The notes under the pieces were generated by a model. It was not told the origin of the DNA. It worked only from the letters and a program-made list of their open reading frames with translations, and made no database searches. Of a stretch of 50,575 nt of DNA, positions 11,351-20,284 are shown piece after piece. This DNA comes from Eggerthellaceae bacterium (GTDB lineage Bacteria; Actinomycetota; Coriobacteriia; Coriobacteriales; Eggerthellaceae), in NCBI GenBank assembly GCA_015062605.1, contig SUUI01000011.1:1-50575 (forward strand), written 5' to 3'. Both the position numbers and the translations under genes were made by a program. The stretch's first letter is position 1; each line of letters begins with the position of its first letter.

Positions 11351-13376
<2,026 letters not shown>

Positions 13377-13383
13377 AGTATTA

Positions 13384-13392
13384 ATTATAGCA
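13384..13392 (-). promoter_or_regulatory. gyrB extended -10 promoter
   Basis: On the minus strand TGCTATAAT forms an extended -10 element (TGn plus perfect TATAAT). No good -35 hexamer is seen, which extended -10 promoters tolerate. It lies about 72 bp upstream of the gyrB start. Confidence 0.6.
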
Positions 13393-13482
13393 TAGATAAG
13401 ACTAAAAAATAGCCCATTTAAGATATTTGAAACGGCGAATGAATACTTATTTAAGGTAAAAATGATAAAAATATCAAAAAAA

Positions 13483-14022
13483 TTAATTATGTGTTTCTAG
13501 ATTGGCTCTCATGGCTTTAGAGAAGGATTGGGCCACTCGTTGATCCTCTATAAGTTCGGTTGCTGCTTCGACGGCAGCTTCTTGACCTTCGTCGAGTGGG
13601 TGATGCGTTTGTGTAAAGTATACAAGATATTGTGGGTTATCGTATTCAATATCCTCTATCTCCACAAAAGGATGGTGTTTTTTCATATTTCCACGTGATG
13701 CGACAAAACGCGCGGATTGAATCTCTTCCCCTTGTGAGAACAAAGCAACCTTGATGAATTCCTGTCGTGCGTCCAAATCTGCTCTTATAAGGCTGTCATC
13801 TGCATATATGATCAGTTCTTTATCGTTTGTTTCTTTGTCTTTTAATATGTAGACGGCATTGATATGCGAAAGGATATAAGAGGCTTTTTCTTTGTAAACC
13901 TGCTCGATTGCCTGCCTAAACAAACCCTGTACGATTAATGCACGTCGCATTTTTAGAGCTGCTTCACCTTTTATGGGAAGCTCATTGAATACGGTCTGGA
14001 GTTTATCTTGCAATGAGTTCAT
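13483..14022 (-). CDS. dciA: DUF721/DciA-family protein, predicted helicase loader
   Basis: 179 residues. In actinobacteria the gene following recF in the dnaA cluster encodes a DUF721 protein, and DciA of this family loads or regulates the replicative helicase DnaB where DnaC/DnaI are absent. Position and size match. The N-terminal half has the pattern of a small KH-like domain (ILSHINAVYILKDKE ... LIIYADDSLIRADLDARQEFI), while the C-terminal 60 residues are a charged tail. Sequence similarity to better-known DciA is weak by eye, so the name rests largely on location. It is 38 bp downstream of recF on the same strand. Confidence 0.7.
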   Translation of the reverse strand: MNSLQDKLQTVFNELPIKGEAALKMRRALIVQGLFRQAIEQVYKEKASYILSHINAVYILKDKETNDKELIIYADDSLIRADLDARQEFIKVALFSQGEEIQSARFVASRGNMKKHHPFVEIEDIEYDNPQYLVYFTQTHHPLDEGQEAAVEAATELIEDQRVAQSFSKAMRANLETHN

Positions 14023-14060
14023 GGTATTACCGGGAAGTTCGGTTTCGTTTTCTCTGCTTT

Positions 14061-15167
14061 CTATGATAAAGGAAGATAAACCGGTTGGATCTTTTCTGTT
14101 GATAAATCATCGAAATATGCAAGGGTCGTCGTTGTAATGAAAACCTGGGTTTCTTCAGGGATGAACCTCATTAGTTCTTTTCGCCTTTTCGCATCGAGCT
14201 CGCTCATCACATCATCAAGGAGAAGAATTGGGCGTTGATGGAGAAGCTCTTCTATCAGCGCGAGTTCTGCCATTCGATAAGCTAATACGATTGATCGCTG
14301 TTGTCCCTGGCTTCCGTATAAGGTTGCATCCTTCCCATTTAGATAATAATGAATCGTATCGAGATGAGGTCCAACCAAGCATCGTTGTCGTTTCTTTTCC
14401 TCTCCACGATGCTCATTGAGAGCCTTCTGTATTTCATTACGAGCATAACTAGGATCGTATCTCTCTATAGGTCCCGTATTTGGCTTTTCTTCCCATGATG
14501 GGGTGAAACCCATTGTCAATGATTCCCGAGAAGAAGAGAGTTGAGAGTAATACTCATTGATAAAAGATGCGAACCTCATTAAAAAAGCGCTTCTATAACA
14601 TGTGAGCTGTGCGCCACAGGTAACTAGCATCTCATCTATTGCGTCTAAAAGAGTGTCGTTAGGGTTTTCTTTTAAAAGCTTGTTTTTATGCCGTAGTACA
14701 TTTTCGCAATCGCGTTTTATGATTCCGTAGTTTTTAGACAATTGAGAACCTAATCTATCAAATTCGCTCCTACGAATGCTTTGCGCTCCTTTTACAAGCG
14801 CCAAATCGTCTGGAGTGAAAATAACAGAGGGTATCAAACCTTTAAGATCCGACGAGTGTTTCTTCTTTCCATTCAGAAAATAGGATTTTCTGTCTTCTGA
14901 GATAACCAGATCTATTACCAAATCCCGCTGGTCGTCTTTTATATGAGCGCAAAGCTTGCTCTGTTCCTCTTTTTCTTTGATCAACTGTTGTAAAGAGGCG
15001 TGTCTGAAAGAGGAAAGAGAAGTGAGCAACTCTATCCCTTCGATGATGTTCGTCTTCCCTACAGCATTCTCTCCTATGAGAACAGTAATGGGAGAAACCA
15101 TCTCAAGATGGAAAGAATCATAATTCCTGAAATGGAAAAACGATAAGTCTTTGATTGTTAAAGACAT
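14061..15167 (-). CDS. recF: DNA replication and repair protein RecF
   Basis: 368 residues, typical length. RecF is an SMC-like ATPase that helps load RecA at single-strand gaps through RecOR. Walker A GENAVGKTN lies near residues 32-40, with the family opening LSFFHFRNYDSF. The ABC signature region GSQGQQRS and Walker B LLLDDVMSELD are near the C-terminus. The start is 8 bp after dnaN, so the two are co-transcribed. Placement between dnaN and dciA is the classic actinobacterial order. Confidence 0.96.
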   Translation of the reverse strand: MSLTIKDLSFFHFRNYDSFHLEMVSPITVLIGENAVGKTNIIEGIELLTSLSSFRHASLQQLIKEKEEQSKLCAHIKDDQRDLVIDLVISEDRKSYFLNGKKKHSSDLKGLIPSVIFTPDDLALVKGAQSIRRSEFDRLGSQLSKNYGIIKRDCENVLRHKNKLLKENPNDTLLDAIDEMLVTCGAQLTCYRSAFLMRFASFINEYYSQLSSSRESLTMGFTPSWEEKPNTGPIERYDPSYARNEIQKALNEHRGEEKKRQRCLVGPHLDTIHYYLNGKDATLYGSQGQQRSIVLAYRMAELALIEELLHQRPILLLDDVMSELDAKRRKELMRFIPEETQVFITTTTLAYFDDLSTEKIQPVYLPLS

Positions 15168-15175
15168 CGGACTCC

Positions 15176-16279
15176 CTAAGAAATGCGGACAGGCATTACT
15201 AGGTAAATGTATTCATCGGTCTGTGGTGTTTTAAAGATACCTGGTTTCAAGGGTGATGTGGTTTCAAGCGCTAACTCGTCAACTCCTGAAGCAGTTAATC
15301 CATCGATAACGTATGCACTATTAAATGCAATCTCTATCGGTTCTCCTTCTGCTTTGCAGATAACGGACTCATTGACTGATCCGATATCTTGGGCCGAAGA
15401 AGAAATATTCGTAATGCCTGATTGGCAGTTGACCGTGAACTTAACGGGAGTTATTGCGGTTCCCATAAGAGAAGCACGTTTTACGGATGCAGTTAAATCA
15501 TCTCGGTTGAAAACAACTCGCGTTGTATATGTGTCGGGGATCAATCGACGATAATTCGGGAATTTACCTTCTATACGACGATTGATGCAAATAACATTCT
15601 GATATGTAATGATGATTTGATTTTCAGAAAGAGAAAGAACAACTGCATCGTCGGTTTTGTTCATTCCTATAACATCATTGAGAAAGTCGGTGGCAATAAT
15701 CGCAGAAAATGGCTCTTCAATCGAATCTTTCAGTTTCTGCTGTGCGATTGCAAGACGATAGGAATCTGAAGCAACCAGTTTGATGATATCTTCTTCTATC
15801 TCGATTAAAACTCCTGGAGGAATCATGTGGTTATCGTCACGTGCGGCAACGCGGATAACCTTCTTTGCCATAGATGTTAGAAGTGTGAAAGGCAGTTCAA
15901 CACTTTGGACTACGGCAACTTCTGGAAAAGCAGGAAAATCGTTCGCATCGAGAGCACGTACATTGAATGAAGCATCTTTGCAATCGATACTCATAGAATC
16001 ATTCGATGAAGAAGAAATCTGAACAGAGGCATCGGGGAGATTTTTGATGATGTCGTTCAGCAATTTTCCCGGAGCAACGATTTCGCCAGATTCTTCAACA
16101 AGAGCCTTTGCAGTATATTGGACTGAAGATTCGAGGTTTGTTGCTTGGAAAACCACATTGTCGTTTATAGCCTTAATGTAAATCCCGGAAAGGATAGGTA
16201 GCGTAGATCTCGTAGATAGAGCCTTCGAAACAATACTCAGAGCATTTGATAATTCGTTTTGGTTAATACTGAATCTCAT
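15176..16279 (-). CDS. dnaN: DNA polymerase III sliding clamp (beta subunit)
   Basis: 367 residues, usual size for the three-domain clamp that encircles DNA and tethers polymerase III. The N-terminus (MRFSINQNELSNALSIVSKALSTRSTLPILSGI) and the C-terminal YIYLVMPVRIS, which forms part of the partner-binding cleft, are characteristic. A GTAGGAGAA ribosome site precedes the start. The 197-bp gap to dnaA contains an AT-rich leader and a GGTTATAACC palindrome (16316-16325) but no DnaA box of the type seen at the origin. Confidence 0.97.
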   Translation of the reverse strand: MRFSINQNELSNALSIVSKALSTRSTLPILSGIYIKAINDNVVFQATNLESSVQYTAKALVEESGEIVAPGKLLNDIIKNLPDASVQISSSSNDSMSIDCKDASFNVRALDANDFPAFPEVAVVQSVELPFTLLTSMAKKVIRVAARDDNHMIPPGVLIEIEEDIIKLVASDSYRLAIAQQKLKDSIEEPFSAIIATDFLNDVIGMNKTDDAVVLSLSENQIIITYQNVICINRRIEGKFPNYRRLIPDTYTTRVVFNRDDLTASVKRASLMGTAITPVKFTVNCQSGITNISSSAQDIGSVNESVICKAEGEPIEIAFNSAYVIDGLTASGVDELALETTSPLKPGIFKTPQTDEYIYLVMPVRIS

Positions 16280-16476
16280 TTCTCCTACTTTCTTAAATAG
16301 ATAAAGAATAGTAATGGTTATAACCCCTGTTGATTGGTTGATAACTTCCTTTATCCCTTATCAGCTACCTGTTTTTCTCTTATATCAAATAGTAAGAATC
16401 TGCTCCATCTGTAAACAGTTGATTCTATGTCTTCCTTCTTCCATATTATTTAATAAGGAATTCCTCAACTTATTAA
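16280..16476. promoter_or_regulatory. dnaA-dnaN intergenic region
   Basis: 197 bp, AT-rich. It holds a perfect 10-bp palindrome GGTTATAACC (16316-16325) and, on the minus strand, a TGATATAAG element that could be an extended -10 for dnaN. No consensus DnaA boxes were seen, so I do not place the origin here. Confidence 0.4.
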
Positions 16477-17958
16477 CTATGCGTTGCGGATAAGATTTTT
16501 TATATTGTCTATCTCCTCGCGCATTTCTCTGCTTTCTTTCATTTTCTCTTCTACGTTTGTGACTGAATAGATAACCGTCGAATGATCTTTATTGAATTTA
16601 TCTCCGATGGCCTTGAATGGGAGGTCGAGCATTTCACGGCAGAGATAAAGTGCAACTTGCCGCGCATAGATGATATCACGTGTTCTTTTCTTCCCAATGA
16701 GGTCGCTATGGCTGACTTTGTAATACGATTCAACTTCCTTTTGAATGTCAGCTATGCTTAATCTCTTCGTTGGGCCGCTTGAATAATGATTCTCCAACAA
16801 GGTTTTAACTTCATCGATCGAGATATCCGTTTTTCCAAACGAGGTCATTTGGAAAATTACTTTCGTAATCGCTGCTTTAAGTTCACGGATGTTAGAGGAT
16901 GAATTTTCTGCGATATAAAGCTGTATTTCAGGAGAAATATCGAAACGTGCGTTCGGGACTTCTTCTTTATATTCCTTTATGAATCCCTTTACTATCCCGA
17001 GCTTCGTTTCCACTTCCGGTGGTTGGATATCGAAAGTACCACCTTGATTGAAACGGCTCTTATATCGTTCGTCTATATCGATGTTTTTAGGTGCTCTGTC
17101 TGCTGAGAGAACAATTTGTTTTCCTTGGTTGGTGAGTTGATTGAAAATCTGGAAAACGATATCCAATGTCTGGGTTTTCCCTTGGAAAAATTGGACGTCG
17201 TCTATTAGCAGAACATCTGCGTTGATGTATTTCTTCTTAAAATTCTTATAGCTTGTTTTTTCTTTATCGTGTTGTATGACCGAATCGGTGTATTCATTCA
17301 AAAAATCATGTGAGTCAACATAAACGCATTTAAGATGAGGAAGATTCTCATTAATATAATGCTTGATAGCGCATAGTAAATGCGTTTTACCTAAACCGCT
17401 CTTACCATAGATGAAAAGCGGATTAAGATGCGATTTTCCCGGTGTCTCCGCAACCGCAACAGCAGTTGAATAAGCCATCCTATTCGAGTCTCCGATAACG
17501 AAATTCTCGAATGTATAGCTGGCCATTTGATTGTTACCTAGGTCATCTGAATTTGTTTGTATATTCGTTTGGTTCGTTAATTCAGATTTGTTTATCTGCT
17601 GGGACTCCTTTTTATATTGTGAAGAAGGCTTCTTTTCTTGACGGTCTTGCGTAGGGGCGCCCGCACTTGCAAACGAGCTCTCCCCTTCTGATTCCTCCGT
17701 TTTCTCTATTTCAATGAGAACAGAAAAGGGAACTCCGTATAAGGCCTGAAGAGATATCTTAATGATATCGAGATAATGGGTCTCTATCCATGTTTTGATG
17801 AAATCGTTATCAGTTGTGAGCATCAAGAAGCCAGGACTCATGGCCTGAGGACGCAAGCGTGAGAAAATAGCGTTTATCTGTGCAGGATCGATATTATCTA
17901 AGCTCTTTATATGGGCGCAAACATCATCCCATTGTTGTTGTAATTCTTTACTATTCAT
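16477..17958 (-). CDS. dnaA: Chromosomal replication initiator DnaA
   Basis: 493 residues. DnaA binds DnaA boxes at oriC, oligomerises with ATP and melts the origin. Domain I covers about residues 1-85. Domain II is a Gln/Asn/Ser-rich linker (about 90-145). Domain III carries Walker A GKSGLGKT (185-192) and Walker B LLIDDVQF (250-257). Domain IV contains the DnaA-box recognition signature KDHSTVIYSV starting near residue 457. The ribosome site is poor, with only weak purine content before the ATG at 17958. A TATACT -10 and an inverted repeat lie just upstream, and the next gene upstream encodes a winged-helix ATPase. Confidence 0.98.
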   Translation of the reverse strand: MNSKELQQQWDDVCAHIKSLDNIDPAQINAIFSRLRPQAMSPGFLMLTTDNDFIKTWIETHYLDIIKISLQALYGVPFSVLIEIEKTEESEGESSFASAGAPTQDRQEKKPSSQYKKESQQINKSELTNQTNIQTNSDDLGNNQMASYTFENFVIGDSNRMAYSTAVAVAETPGKSHLNPLFIYGKSGLGKTHLLCAIKHYINENLPHLKCVYVDSHDFLNEYTDSVIQHDKEKTSYKNFKKKYINADVLLIDDVQFFQGKTQTLDIVFQIFNQLTNQGKQIVLSADRAPKNIDIDERYKSRFNQGGTFDIQPPEVETKLGIVKGFIKEYKEEVPNARFDISPEIQLYIAENSSSNIRELKAAITKVIFQMTSFGKTDISIDEVKTLLENHYSSGPTKRLSIADIQKEVESYYKVSHSDLIGKKRTRDIIYARQVALYLCREMLDLPFKAIGDKFNKDHSTVIYSVTNVEEKMKESREMREEIDNIKNLIRNA

Positions 17959-17978
17959 CTATATGCCAATCTGCGATG

Positions 17979-18010
17979 ATTCGGTAGTTGAGGGTCCTAG
18001 TATACCGAAT
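17979..18010 (-). promoter_or_regulatory. dnaA promoter with overlapping inverted repeat
   Basis: On the minus strand TATACT (17999-18004) is a good -10, giving a start near 17992 and a leader of about 34 nt. ATTCGGTA (17979-17986) and TACCGAAT (18003-18010) are exact inverted 8-mers with centres 24 bp apart. They flank the predicted start point and the right arm overlaps the -10. This fits an operator that would block the dnaA promoter; the binding protein is unknown. Confidence 0.5.
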
Positions 18011-18059
18011 TTAAAGCGCGATTATTATGGTAAAGAAAACAATTTGACGAAAGAGAAAA

Positions 18060-18845
18060 TTAAGAGAGAGTTGAGGATATCTCTTTCCCATATTGTGTGA
18101 GAATTCGCTTTTGACGTGCTGTTTTTTCTACTATTCCGGCTTCTTCTAACTCAACGAGGGCCTTATGGGTGCTTGAAAGAGGAATATTCAAGAGATTTGT
18201 TATCTCAGTAACACCTAATGCATCTTCTATGGATAGAAGGTTGATGATTTGTCTCTGACGATCATTGAGGAACGGTACGGGAATACGGGTTTTGCCTTGA
18301 GCCGGATCGGTTGTTCGGTTTTGACTGAGGCTGATGGTGATTACCGCTCCTGTTGTAAGGTTATCTTCGATAGTGATGGTTCCATGTGAACTATTCAGAT
18401 ACTCCCTCACGATGGGGAGACCGGACCCTACACCGCGTATATACTCCTTCATTTGCGTAGTTGCTGAAGAGAAGCCGGGTAATTGGGCTTTATCCTTCTT
18501 TTCGATGCCAGGACCCTGATCGGCGAATCGAATCGTGTTTCCCTTATCGAGAATGGATACGATGATTTCTTTAAACTGTGCATGGATGAAATTCTCCGAA
18601 ACCTCACGAATAATCGTATAAGGCACTTTTCCACCCATTTGCTGTGCTTGGCTGTAAATGGCAACGGTGAGATTTTCTATAAATGTGTGCGTAGGTGCCG
18701 GAGAAACCTCCGTGATCTGAGGGGCAGAGAGAAAATCATCATAGCGTGCAATACGCGCAACGGTGTCAACGAAGCTGTAGTCAAAAGAACCCTGCTCTTG
18801 GGAAGAAGAGGCGTTTCCTAAAGTGTTTTCGTTTATCGTTTCCAT
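18060..18845 (-). CDS. GHKL ATPase domain plus winged-helix DNA-binding domain
   Basis: 261 residues, two domains. Residues about 55-175 form a histidine-kinase-like ATP-binding fold with an N box (EVSENFIHA, Glu81 and Asn85), G1 box DQGPGI (109-114) and G2 box GVGSGLPIV (138-146). There is no histidine phosphoacceptor domain, so it resembles anti-sigma/SpoIIAB-type ATPases more than sensor kinases. Residues about 193-255 form a winged helix (RQRQIINLLS ... GVTEITNLLNIPLSSTHKALVELEEAGIV), so ATP binding may be tied to DNA binding. It lies 101 bp upstream of dnaA on the same strand and borders the origin. Role unknown. The ribosome site is weak. Confidence 0.8.
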   Translation of the reverse strand: METINENTLGNASSSQEQGSFDYSFVDTVARIARYDDFLSAPQITEVSPAPTHTFIENLTVAIYSQAQQMGGKVPYTIIREVSENFIHAQFKEIIVSILDKGNTIRFADQGPGIEKKDKAQLPGFSSATTQMKEYIRGVGSGLPIVREYLNSSHGTITIEDNLTTGAVITISLSQNRTTDPAQGKTRIPVPFLNDRQRQIINLLSIEDALGVTEITNLLNIPLSSTHKALVELEEAGIVEKTARQKRILTQYGKEISSTLS

Positions 18846-19720
18846 TTTTCGCTTTTCTGAAAAATGCTTTCATTCTTTCAATAATATTCAGGTTATTTTA
18901 CCCTGATTTTCACGATATTCACTAACATATTGTTGAATAGTGAGATTATTTAATCTGCTTTCCTTCCTGCATACAGTTAAAAAATCATCAATAAACAGCG
19001 ATTTTCATGGTTTTTAACATTTGATTTACAAAAAGTGGAAAACTTCGAAAAATATTATTCCATATAGTTGGGGCCCGACAAATATTTGTTAAAAAGTATC
19101 TTGACTTTTTTGATTCCCACGTTTTCCCAGATGGCAAAGAATGCATGTTGAGCCGCTCAATTGGTCAAGGCATCGTTACAGTATTTTTTTTATCAAATTT
19201 TTCTTAAATAAAGGCAAAAATAGACAAAACACCAGATAAATCAACGTTTTTAAGCATGAATTCAAAAAAGCGAATCTTCATGCGAAAACGGAATACTATC
19301 TTGAAGAAAAATACGTGAATAATCTTTTCCACCAAGGATTCTCGAATAGGAAATGGGATTTCAACGTTTTCCACAATTTTCCACTTCCCTTTTTGAATAA
19401 AACGGTACGACAGGGTGCATGATGGGCGATTTTAGGTGTTCGGATGGATAATTACTTGTTTTTGCAACGAATTAAAGGATTGAAATATTCATTTTTAAGC
19501 GATTGAGCCAATGAGAAAGGATTGTTTGATGGGAATCGGCGATCTAGGTCTTATCGGCCAGTGAAGGCAAGCCTTCCTCTTTAGTCTATATATATAGTCA
19601 AGAAGATAGAAACGTCCTTCCGGCTGCTTGGCGATCCATATATCGGCAATATAGAAGCACTGCTCTATATTTAGGAAAAGAGGAGAAGCTCGGCCATTGT
19701 CAATCCGTCGTTTTAAGAAA
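18846..19720. other. Probable oriC: AT-rich gap with DnaA boxes
   Basis: This gene-free, strongly AT-rich stretch lies between the divergent dnaA and rpmH blocks. It carries four boxes of the form TTTTCCAC[A/C/T]: 19034-19042 (minus), 19325-19333, 19367-19375 and 19377-19385 (plus, the last two 10 bp apart). These deviate from TTATCCACA by A to T at position 3. An especially AT-rich run at about 19182-19225, with long T and A tracts, is a candidate unwinding element. The strand bias of genes flips here. A palindrome CTATATATATAG lies at 19586-19597. Assignment is by location and motifs. Confidence 0.75.
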
Positions 19721-19728
19721 GGTTTTTC

Positions 19729-19756
19729 TTGACTTTCATATATTCGGCTATATAAT
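19729..19756 (+). promoter_or_regulatory. rpmH promoter
   Basis: TTGACT (19729-19734), a 16-bp spacer and a perfect TATAAT (19751-19756) give a start near 19763 and a leader of about 36 nt before rpmH, whose ribosome site is AAGGAAG. It probably drives rpmH-rnpA-yidD-yidC-jag. Confidence 0.8.
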
Positions 19757-19798
19757 TCTGAAGTTGCTCTAAAAACACTTATTAAGGAAGATGGAATT

Positions 19799-19933
19799 AT
19801 GAAGCGTACCTACCAGCCAAATAATCGCAAGCGCGCAAAGTGCCACGGTTTTCGTGCTCGTATGGCAACCAAGGGCGGCCGCGCCGTTCTCTCTGCTCGT
19901 CGCGCAAAAGGGCGTAAGCGCCTGTGTGTATAA
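19799..19933 (+). CDS. rpmH: 50S ribosomal protein L34
   Basis: A 44-residue basic protein, [14 protein letters not shown] at the start and KGRKRLCV at the end, with the family core [25 protein letters not shown]34 is a small component of the large ribosomal subunit. It is the first gene right of the origin and is followed after 12 bp by rnpA, the near-universal order. Confidence 0.98.
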
Positions 19934-19945
19934 AAGGCTTTCCAG

Positions 19946-20284
19946 TTGGAAACCATTAAATCCAGCGAGGAAATCACTCTTCTCTTCAAGCAAGGGAATC
20001 GCTTTCACACAGCGCACCTTACGTTCATCGTTTTACCTCAATGCGGCCATGGCGAAACAACCAATGGTCGCGTTGCTTTTATAGCGGGGAAAAAACTCGG
20101 AAACGCGGTTTGGCGGAATCGAGCCAAACGCAGGATGAGAGCAGTTTGCAAAGATATCGGAGGTCCTTGGCAAGGACTAGATGTTGTATTTTTAGCCAAG
20201 AAAAGCATTACTGAGGCACAATATATTGATTTATTGAAATCATGTGCCGCCATTGAAAATAAATTTAAGGAATTACAGGATTGA
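19946..20284 (+). CDS. rnpA: Ribonuclease P protein component
   Basis: 112 residues with a TTG start (AAAAGG ribosome site overlapping the rpmH stop). This subunit assists RNase P RNA in trimming tRNA 5' leaders. The RNA-binding RNR-type motif is visible as KLGNAVWRNRAKRRMR (about residues 50-65), the most conserved part of the family. The C-terminal half fits the family (LDVVFLAKKS). The usual N-terminal motif is loosely kept (LFKQGNRFHT). It is 12 bp from both neighbours. Confidence 0.96.
   Translation: METIKSSEEITLLFKQGNRFHTAHLTFIVLPQCGHGETTNGRVAFIAGKKLGNAVWRNRAKRRMRAVCKDIGGPWQGLDVVFLAKKSITEAQYIDLLKSCAAIENKFKELQD

Follow-up and report, generated by a model that had tools for sequence, protein, structure and literature searches.

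A dnaA-linked family of GHKL-winged-helix proteins in Actinomycetota, a candidate regulator of dnaA expression or replication initiation

In the window, a 50,575-nt stretch of DNA from an Eggerthellaceae bacterium, a protein of 261 amino acids (18060..18845, minus strand, ATG start at 18845 and stop codon at 18060-18062) is encoded directly before dnaA (16477..17958, minus strand), which follows on the same strand after a gap of 101 nt. It belongs to a dnaA-linked family whose members consist of a GHKL domain, a linker, and a winged helix-turn-helix (wHTH) domain and are encoded directly upstream of dnaA. Of the readings considered, a nucleotide-gated regulator that binds DNA and is encoded in the dnaA operon is the most likely (probability about 0.42); it would act on dnaA expression or on initiation, and its role in replication is one that we infer from the linkage only.

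Loci were fetched from 114 distinct genomes, and dnaA was present within the same stretch in 104 of them, most stretches of the other ten stopping at a contig or chromosome end. In 103 of the 104 genomes in which both genes are in view, dnaA comes immediately downstream in the same orientation. This number comprises 99 genomes recognized by script and L040, L049, L062, and L094, which the script missed only through long linkers or start extrapolation and which were added by reading ORF ends. The sole exception is L011, in which the two genes diverge and lie about 0.6 kb apart. The linkage spans about 30 family codes. As its other neighbour, the GHKL gene has a divergent rpmH in 81 genomes and a divergent dnaN in 12. 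Since this neighbour changes while dnaA persists, the gene stays with dnaA when other classic neighbours move. The origin cluster is rearranged in an unusual way, with a divergent dnaN next to the GHKL gene and dnaA, in the Eggerthellaceae-family loci L005, L012, L017, L018, L022, L024, L026, L029, L030, L034, L035, and L050, and in L050 gyrB accompanies dnaN on the divergent side.

In many families outside the Eggerthellaceae, 3-20 nt lie between the stop codon of the GHKL gene and the start of dnaA, or the two genes overlap. In the Eggerthellaceae, about 25-270 nt separate the two genes, and a TATACAAT-like site, perhaps a separate promoter for dnaA, is frequent in this spacer. The region of rpmH and dnaA is one of the most conserved bacterial neighbourhoods, so that the linkage by itself may have been maintained for the sake of expression. 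An ordinary transcription factor, one that serves an unrelated regulon, has no role in replication, and owes its place before dnaA to growth-coupled expression alone, would agree with the promoter-like sites in the spacers of some relatives, which would permit independent expression of dnaA, with the loss of the GHKL gene from some genomes with an intact dnaA, and with the failure to find an operator for it at the origin. A generic regulator is, however, expected to move, whereas the linkage to dnaA outlasts the rearrangement of rpmH or dnaN over these family codes and the two genes are very closely spaced in most other classes. We consider an ordinary transcription factor rather unlikely.

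By single-sequence search, the gene was detected in 153 of the 161 good genomes of the order, in 208 of the 221 good genomes of the Coriobacteriia, and in 123 of a phylum-wide sample of 247 good genomes, the last number including a few matches at E near 1e-5 to other GHKL proteins, so that the true count is somewhat lower. A profile search splits members of the family (main-domain E < 1e-48) cleanly from other GHKL proteins (best about E 1e-13). Conservation next to dnaA in the Coriobacteriia, as envisaged in the original prediction, is thus observed and extends far beyond the class. The closest relative, L031, belongs to an Eggerthellaceae MAG and is 90% identical. Median identities to the GHKL protein of the window amount to 58% in the Eggerthellaceae, 44% in other Coriobacteriia, and 36% in other classes, compared to 54%, 35%, and 34%, respectively, for DnaA, i.e., the conservation of the GHKL protein equals or exceeds that of DnaA. 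The distances of both proteins co-vary (Mantel r 0.57, 0 of 999 permutations), which fits joint vertical descent. A mobile or viral origin was rejected, as no viral relatives were found and plasmid matches were partial and histidine-kinase-like only. Judged from these sequence comparisons, the family is vertically inherited and extends over a large part of the Actinomycetota whose lineages diverged long ago.

Ten Coriobacteriia genomes apparently missing the gene were checked for dnaA. Five of them are also without dnaA in the assembly, one is cut by the contig start, and four (G115 and G198, which belong to one genus, G204, and G236) represent true losses with dnaA and rpmH kept, as does G311 outside the class. 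Sampled families elsewhere in the phylum likewise possess dnaA without the GHKL gene. Due to the retention of dnaA after its loss, the GHKL gene is regarded as dispensable and not universally essential. In the 9.2-Mb genome G319 and others sampled, dnaA is present and the GHKL gene absent, and the class Actinomycetes appears to be without the gene. DnaA domain I of the class Actinomycetes has a class-specific dimer (PMC13270200), and one might speculate that this dimer and the GHKL gene replace each other.

The GHKL ATP-binding domain of the window protein covers residues about 76-175 (18321..18620, minus strand), as delimited by the invariant columns and by the Pfam match to PF02518 (HATPase_c, residues 76-174, E 1e-10), and contains the N box at 81-88, the G1 box at 109-114, and the lid together with the G2 box at 117-144. 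It is followed by a disordered linker of residues about 175-191 (18273..18323, minus strand), assigned from the AlphaFold2 model and comparison with relatives, and by a C-terminal winged helix of residues about 192-261 (18063..18272, minus strand). For the latter, Pfam reports a PF09339/MarR-like winged helix at residues about 193-245 (E 1e-6, above the family cut-off), and chains of the MarR family align to it with Z 12-14 over about 70-76 residues (VIA-align). Sequence and model thus point to a fold of the MarR/IclR wHTH type with predicted DNA binding. The AlphaFold2 model, built from 62 relatives, has a mean pLDDT of 91 and places short strands (30-34 and 43-47) in front of the GHKL domain, the disordered linker around 175-190, and the winged helix at 192-261. 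In many relatives, the linker grows to 75-194 residues and is rich in Pro, Ala, Gln, Gly, and Tyr, indicating that the winged helix is flexibly tethered. None of the 62 family members matched HisKA, DHp, STAS, AlbA_2, HATPase_c_2, or RsbW-type domains. In its own genome, the gene is single-copy, next to seven other PF02518 matches.

All three boxes of the ATP site are present, namely the N box E81-VSE-N85-FI-H88, the G1 box D109-QG111-PG113, and the G2 box G138-VG140-SG142. In an alignment of 62 sequences from many families, ten residues are invariant (N85, H88, D109, G111, G113, G124, G138, G142, G155, and G166), all of which fall inside the ATP-binding domain. PF02518 is matched by 62 of 62 members and is the best Pfam match of the family. 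With these features, among them the metal-chelating Asn and the Asp of the G1 box, the protein is assigned to the GHKL (Bergerat) superfamily, and ATP binding is predicted. The original prediction of N, G1, and G2 boxes without a phosphoacceptor domain, joined to a winged helix, is borne out by the PF02518 match, by the 62 members without HisKA, and by the model.

Of 96 sequences, 94 have Glu at the position of E81, which precedes N85 by four residues. The same position is occupied by N or Q in the two readable histidine kinases of the own genome and by E in HtpG. SpoIIAB, PDK/BCKDK, and the GHL ATPases (GyrB/MutL/Hsp90) have their general base at this position of the N box. Due to the Glu at E81, compared to N or Q in these two histidine kinases, an active ATPase or a Ser kinase is plausible from the sequence and a histidine kinase is not. 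A sensor histidine kinase was also rejected because HisKA/DHp was found neither in the 62 members nor in the model.

The Glu at E81 likewise favours a Ser/Thr kinase in the style of SpoIIAB and PDK, which the winged helix would place on DNA and which would phosphorylate DnaA or another origin factor. Further support comes from the family profile, which weakly matches SpoIIAB structures (E 4e-4) and also reaches BCKDK/PDK structures, and from CapK, an HTH-STAS-GHKL Ser kinase that phosphorylates CapS, a separate STAS-wHTH repressor, and controls the adjacent operon (PMC13373217). However, the same Glu is present in the pure ATPases GyrB and HtpG, no linked partner with a conserved phospho-serine was found, PF13581 (RsbW) is without a match, and the one STAS/SpoIIE module detected in the genome has its own RsbW-type kinase domain, for which reason the GHKL protein was also rejected as the kinase of this module. 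In our view, a Ser/Thr kinase acting at the origin is doubtful. The module itself (L170, 3850-7110, G000:C27) is of the partner-switching kind with fused kinase and phosphatase: a membrane protein of 965 aa combines a SpoIIE phosphatase domain with an RsbW-type kinase domain, and a STAS protein comes next.

Upstream of the GHKL gene, an AT-rich intergenic region of 953 nt with 34% GC (18846..19798) extends to the divergent rpmH, which is located at 19799 on its opposite side, and represents the putative oriC and promoter region. In the part of the window with dnaN, dnaA, and the origin (13000-20000), G+C drops to about 39-42%, compared to 53-56% elsewhere in the window. A cluster of DnaA-box-like sequences is situated at about 19360..19400, with TTTTCCACA at 19367 on the plus strand and tandem GTGGAAAA/GTTGAAA-type repeats. 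Across relatives, DnaA-box-like sites upstream are about 20-fold enriched over shuffles (204 observed, about 10 expected), whereas in the upstream region of the window only one site passes at one mismatch, besides the tandem cluster. The putative oriC between rpmH and the GHKL gene is thus well supported comparatively. Of the predicted location between oriC and dnaA on the dnaA strand, strand and adjacency to dnaA stand as stated, while oriC is supported by the comparison with relatives rather than proven in the window. In the gap between dnaA and dnaN, DnaA-box matches are about 33-fold enriched, and the origin region appears to include the GHKL gene, in many cases with a box cluster on either side of it. 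In L061 and L062 (family f40), 17-18 DnaA-box matches occur in a dnaA-dnaN gap of 535-611 nt, far above the Coriobacteriia.

A search with k-mers and dyads for an operator specific to the winged helix yielded none in the region between rpmH and the GHKL gene, DnaA-box motifs alone being enriched. A conserved three-box element between rpmH and dnaA consists of TTTTCCACA, about 2 nt, TGTGGAAAG, about 3 nt, and TGTGGATAA, i.e., a box followed by two inverted boxes. It occurs in the upstream regions of L054-L093 and in L158-L160, L163, L165, and L166, with or without the GHKL gene and in many Actinomycetota. Due to its persistence in genomes without the gene, the element was rejected as operator of the GHKL protein and is considered to mark DnaA binding. 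In the 5' spacer of dnaA, the window and L031 share the inverted repeat ATTCGGTA-N16-TACCGAAT (17979..18010, minus strand), which could form a leader structure or serve as an operator. Being restricted to the window and this closest relative, it was rejected as an operator of the family, and the non-coding spacer shows 93% identity to L031, level with coding sequence.

For the dnaA-operon regulator, we envisage that ATP would be bound by the GHKL domain via the Bergerat site, the residues of which are observed to be intact, and that a ligand or partner at the conserved N-terminal strands (RxAxYD...PRV) could modulate the nucleotide state. This state would alter either dimerization or the way in which the tethered winged helix of the MarR type is positioned, and the winged helix presumably binds DNA in the origin/dnaA region. 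The bound winged helix would then adjust, in one direction or the other, dnaA transcription or the assembly of DnaA at oriC, and initiation would be tied to the state of the cell. Anatomy, invariant ATP site, linkage to dnaA, deep conservation, and a pairing that withstands rearrangements were counted in favour of this regulator; an origin without a gene-specific motif, the five genomes with losses, and the divergent arrangement in L011 were counted against it. A more far-reaching version, which we deem unlikely, is an initiation control factor new to the literature, i.e., an ATP-switched GHKL-winged-helix protein from the dnaA operon that binds the origin or modifies DnaA and thereby licenses or restrains replication in several deeply diverged Actinomycetota lineages.

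To our knowledge, no regulator of DnaA is known in many bacteria besides E. coli and Bacillus subtilis. For mycobacteria, one publication states that no DnaA regulator is known (PMC5720831). A conserved gene that keeps its place before dnaA across deep lineages of the Actinomycetota, among them gut Eggerthellaceae, offers a concrete candidate for a regulator of DnaA or replication. If this holds true, the family would provide an example of a GHKL fold wired to replication and of a GHKL ATPase acting beside an AAA+ initiator.

Among known systems, the protein resembles the catalytic domains of histidine kinases in its best Pfam match, and SpoIIAB/RsbW in its single GHKL domain without DHp, its Glu four residues before the N-box Asn, and the absence of a membrane part. 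In contrast to SpoIIAB, in which the His is found at N+4, the family has His at N+3, carries a winged helix, and is without an adjacent STAS partner, no STAS gene having been found among the neighbours of the GHKL gene. An anti-sigma kinase of the SpoIIAB/RsbW type (PF13581) was rejected, since none of the 62 members matched at 1e-3 and the gene is absent from the PF13581 matches of its own genome at E 0.1. By profile, the protein is therefore not counted in the family of the SpoIIAB/RsbW-like ATPases, which the original prediction had cited for their ATP-dependent binding of partner proteins.

The best structural match over both domains is DIP2311 of Corynebacterium diphtheriae (PDB 3lmm), an AlbA_2/HATPase_c_4/winged-helix protein, with an E of 6e-7 in Foldseek and a Z of 14.7 over 212 residues in VIA-align. 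As in DIP2311, the GHKL domain is followed by a winged helix, but identity is 13% and the rmsd of 9.3 A indicates a different domain arrangement. Membership in the 3lmm type was rejected, as neither AlbA_2 nor HATPase_c_4 was found in the 62 members, and the likeness is structural only.

With CapK the family shares the combination of GHKL and helix-turn-helix domains in one protein. It differs from CapK in being without a STAS domain and in its C-terminal winged helix on the same chain as the GHKL domain, and for these reasons, together with a neighbourhood without a CapS-like gene, membership among CapK kinases was rejected. CapK is activated by ssDNA, for which its STAS domain forms a groove (PMC13373217). 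The shared domains and the position of the GHKL gene next to the origin would suit a CapK-like sensor of DNA damage or ssDNA at the origin that restrains dnaA expression or initiation, but a family without the groove-forming STAS domain makes such a sensor highly improbable. Considering DIP2311 and CapK, the combination of GHKL and helix-turn-helix domains is not unique, contrary to the original prediction; no description of a dnaA-linked GHKL-winged-helix family was found in the literature. The pairing of GHKL domain and winged helix itself was thus already known, and the new part is the replication-linked dnaA context of this family.
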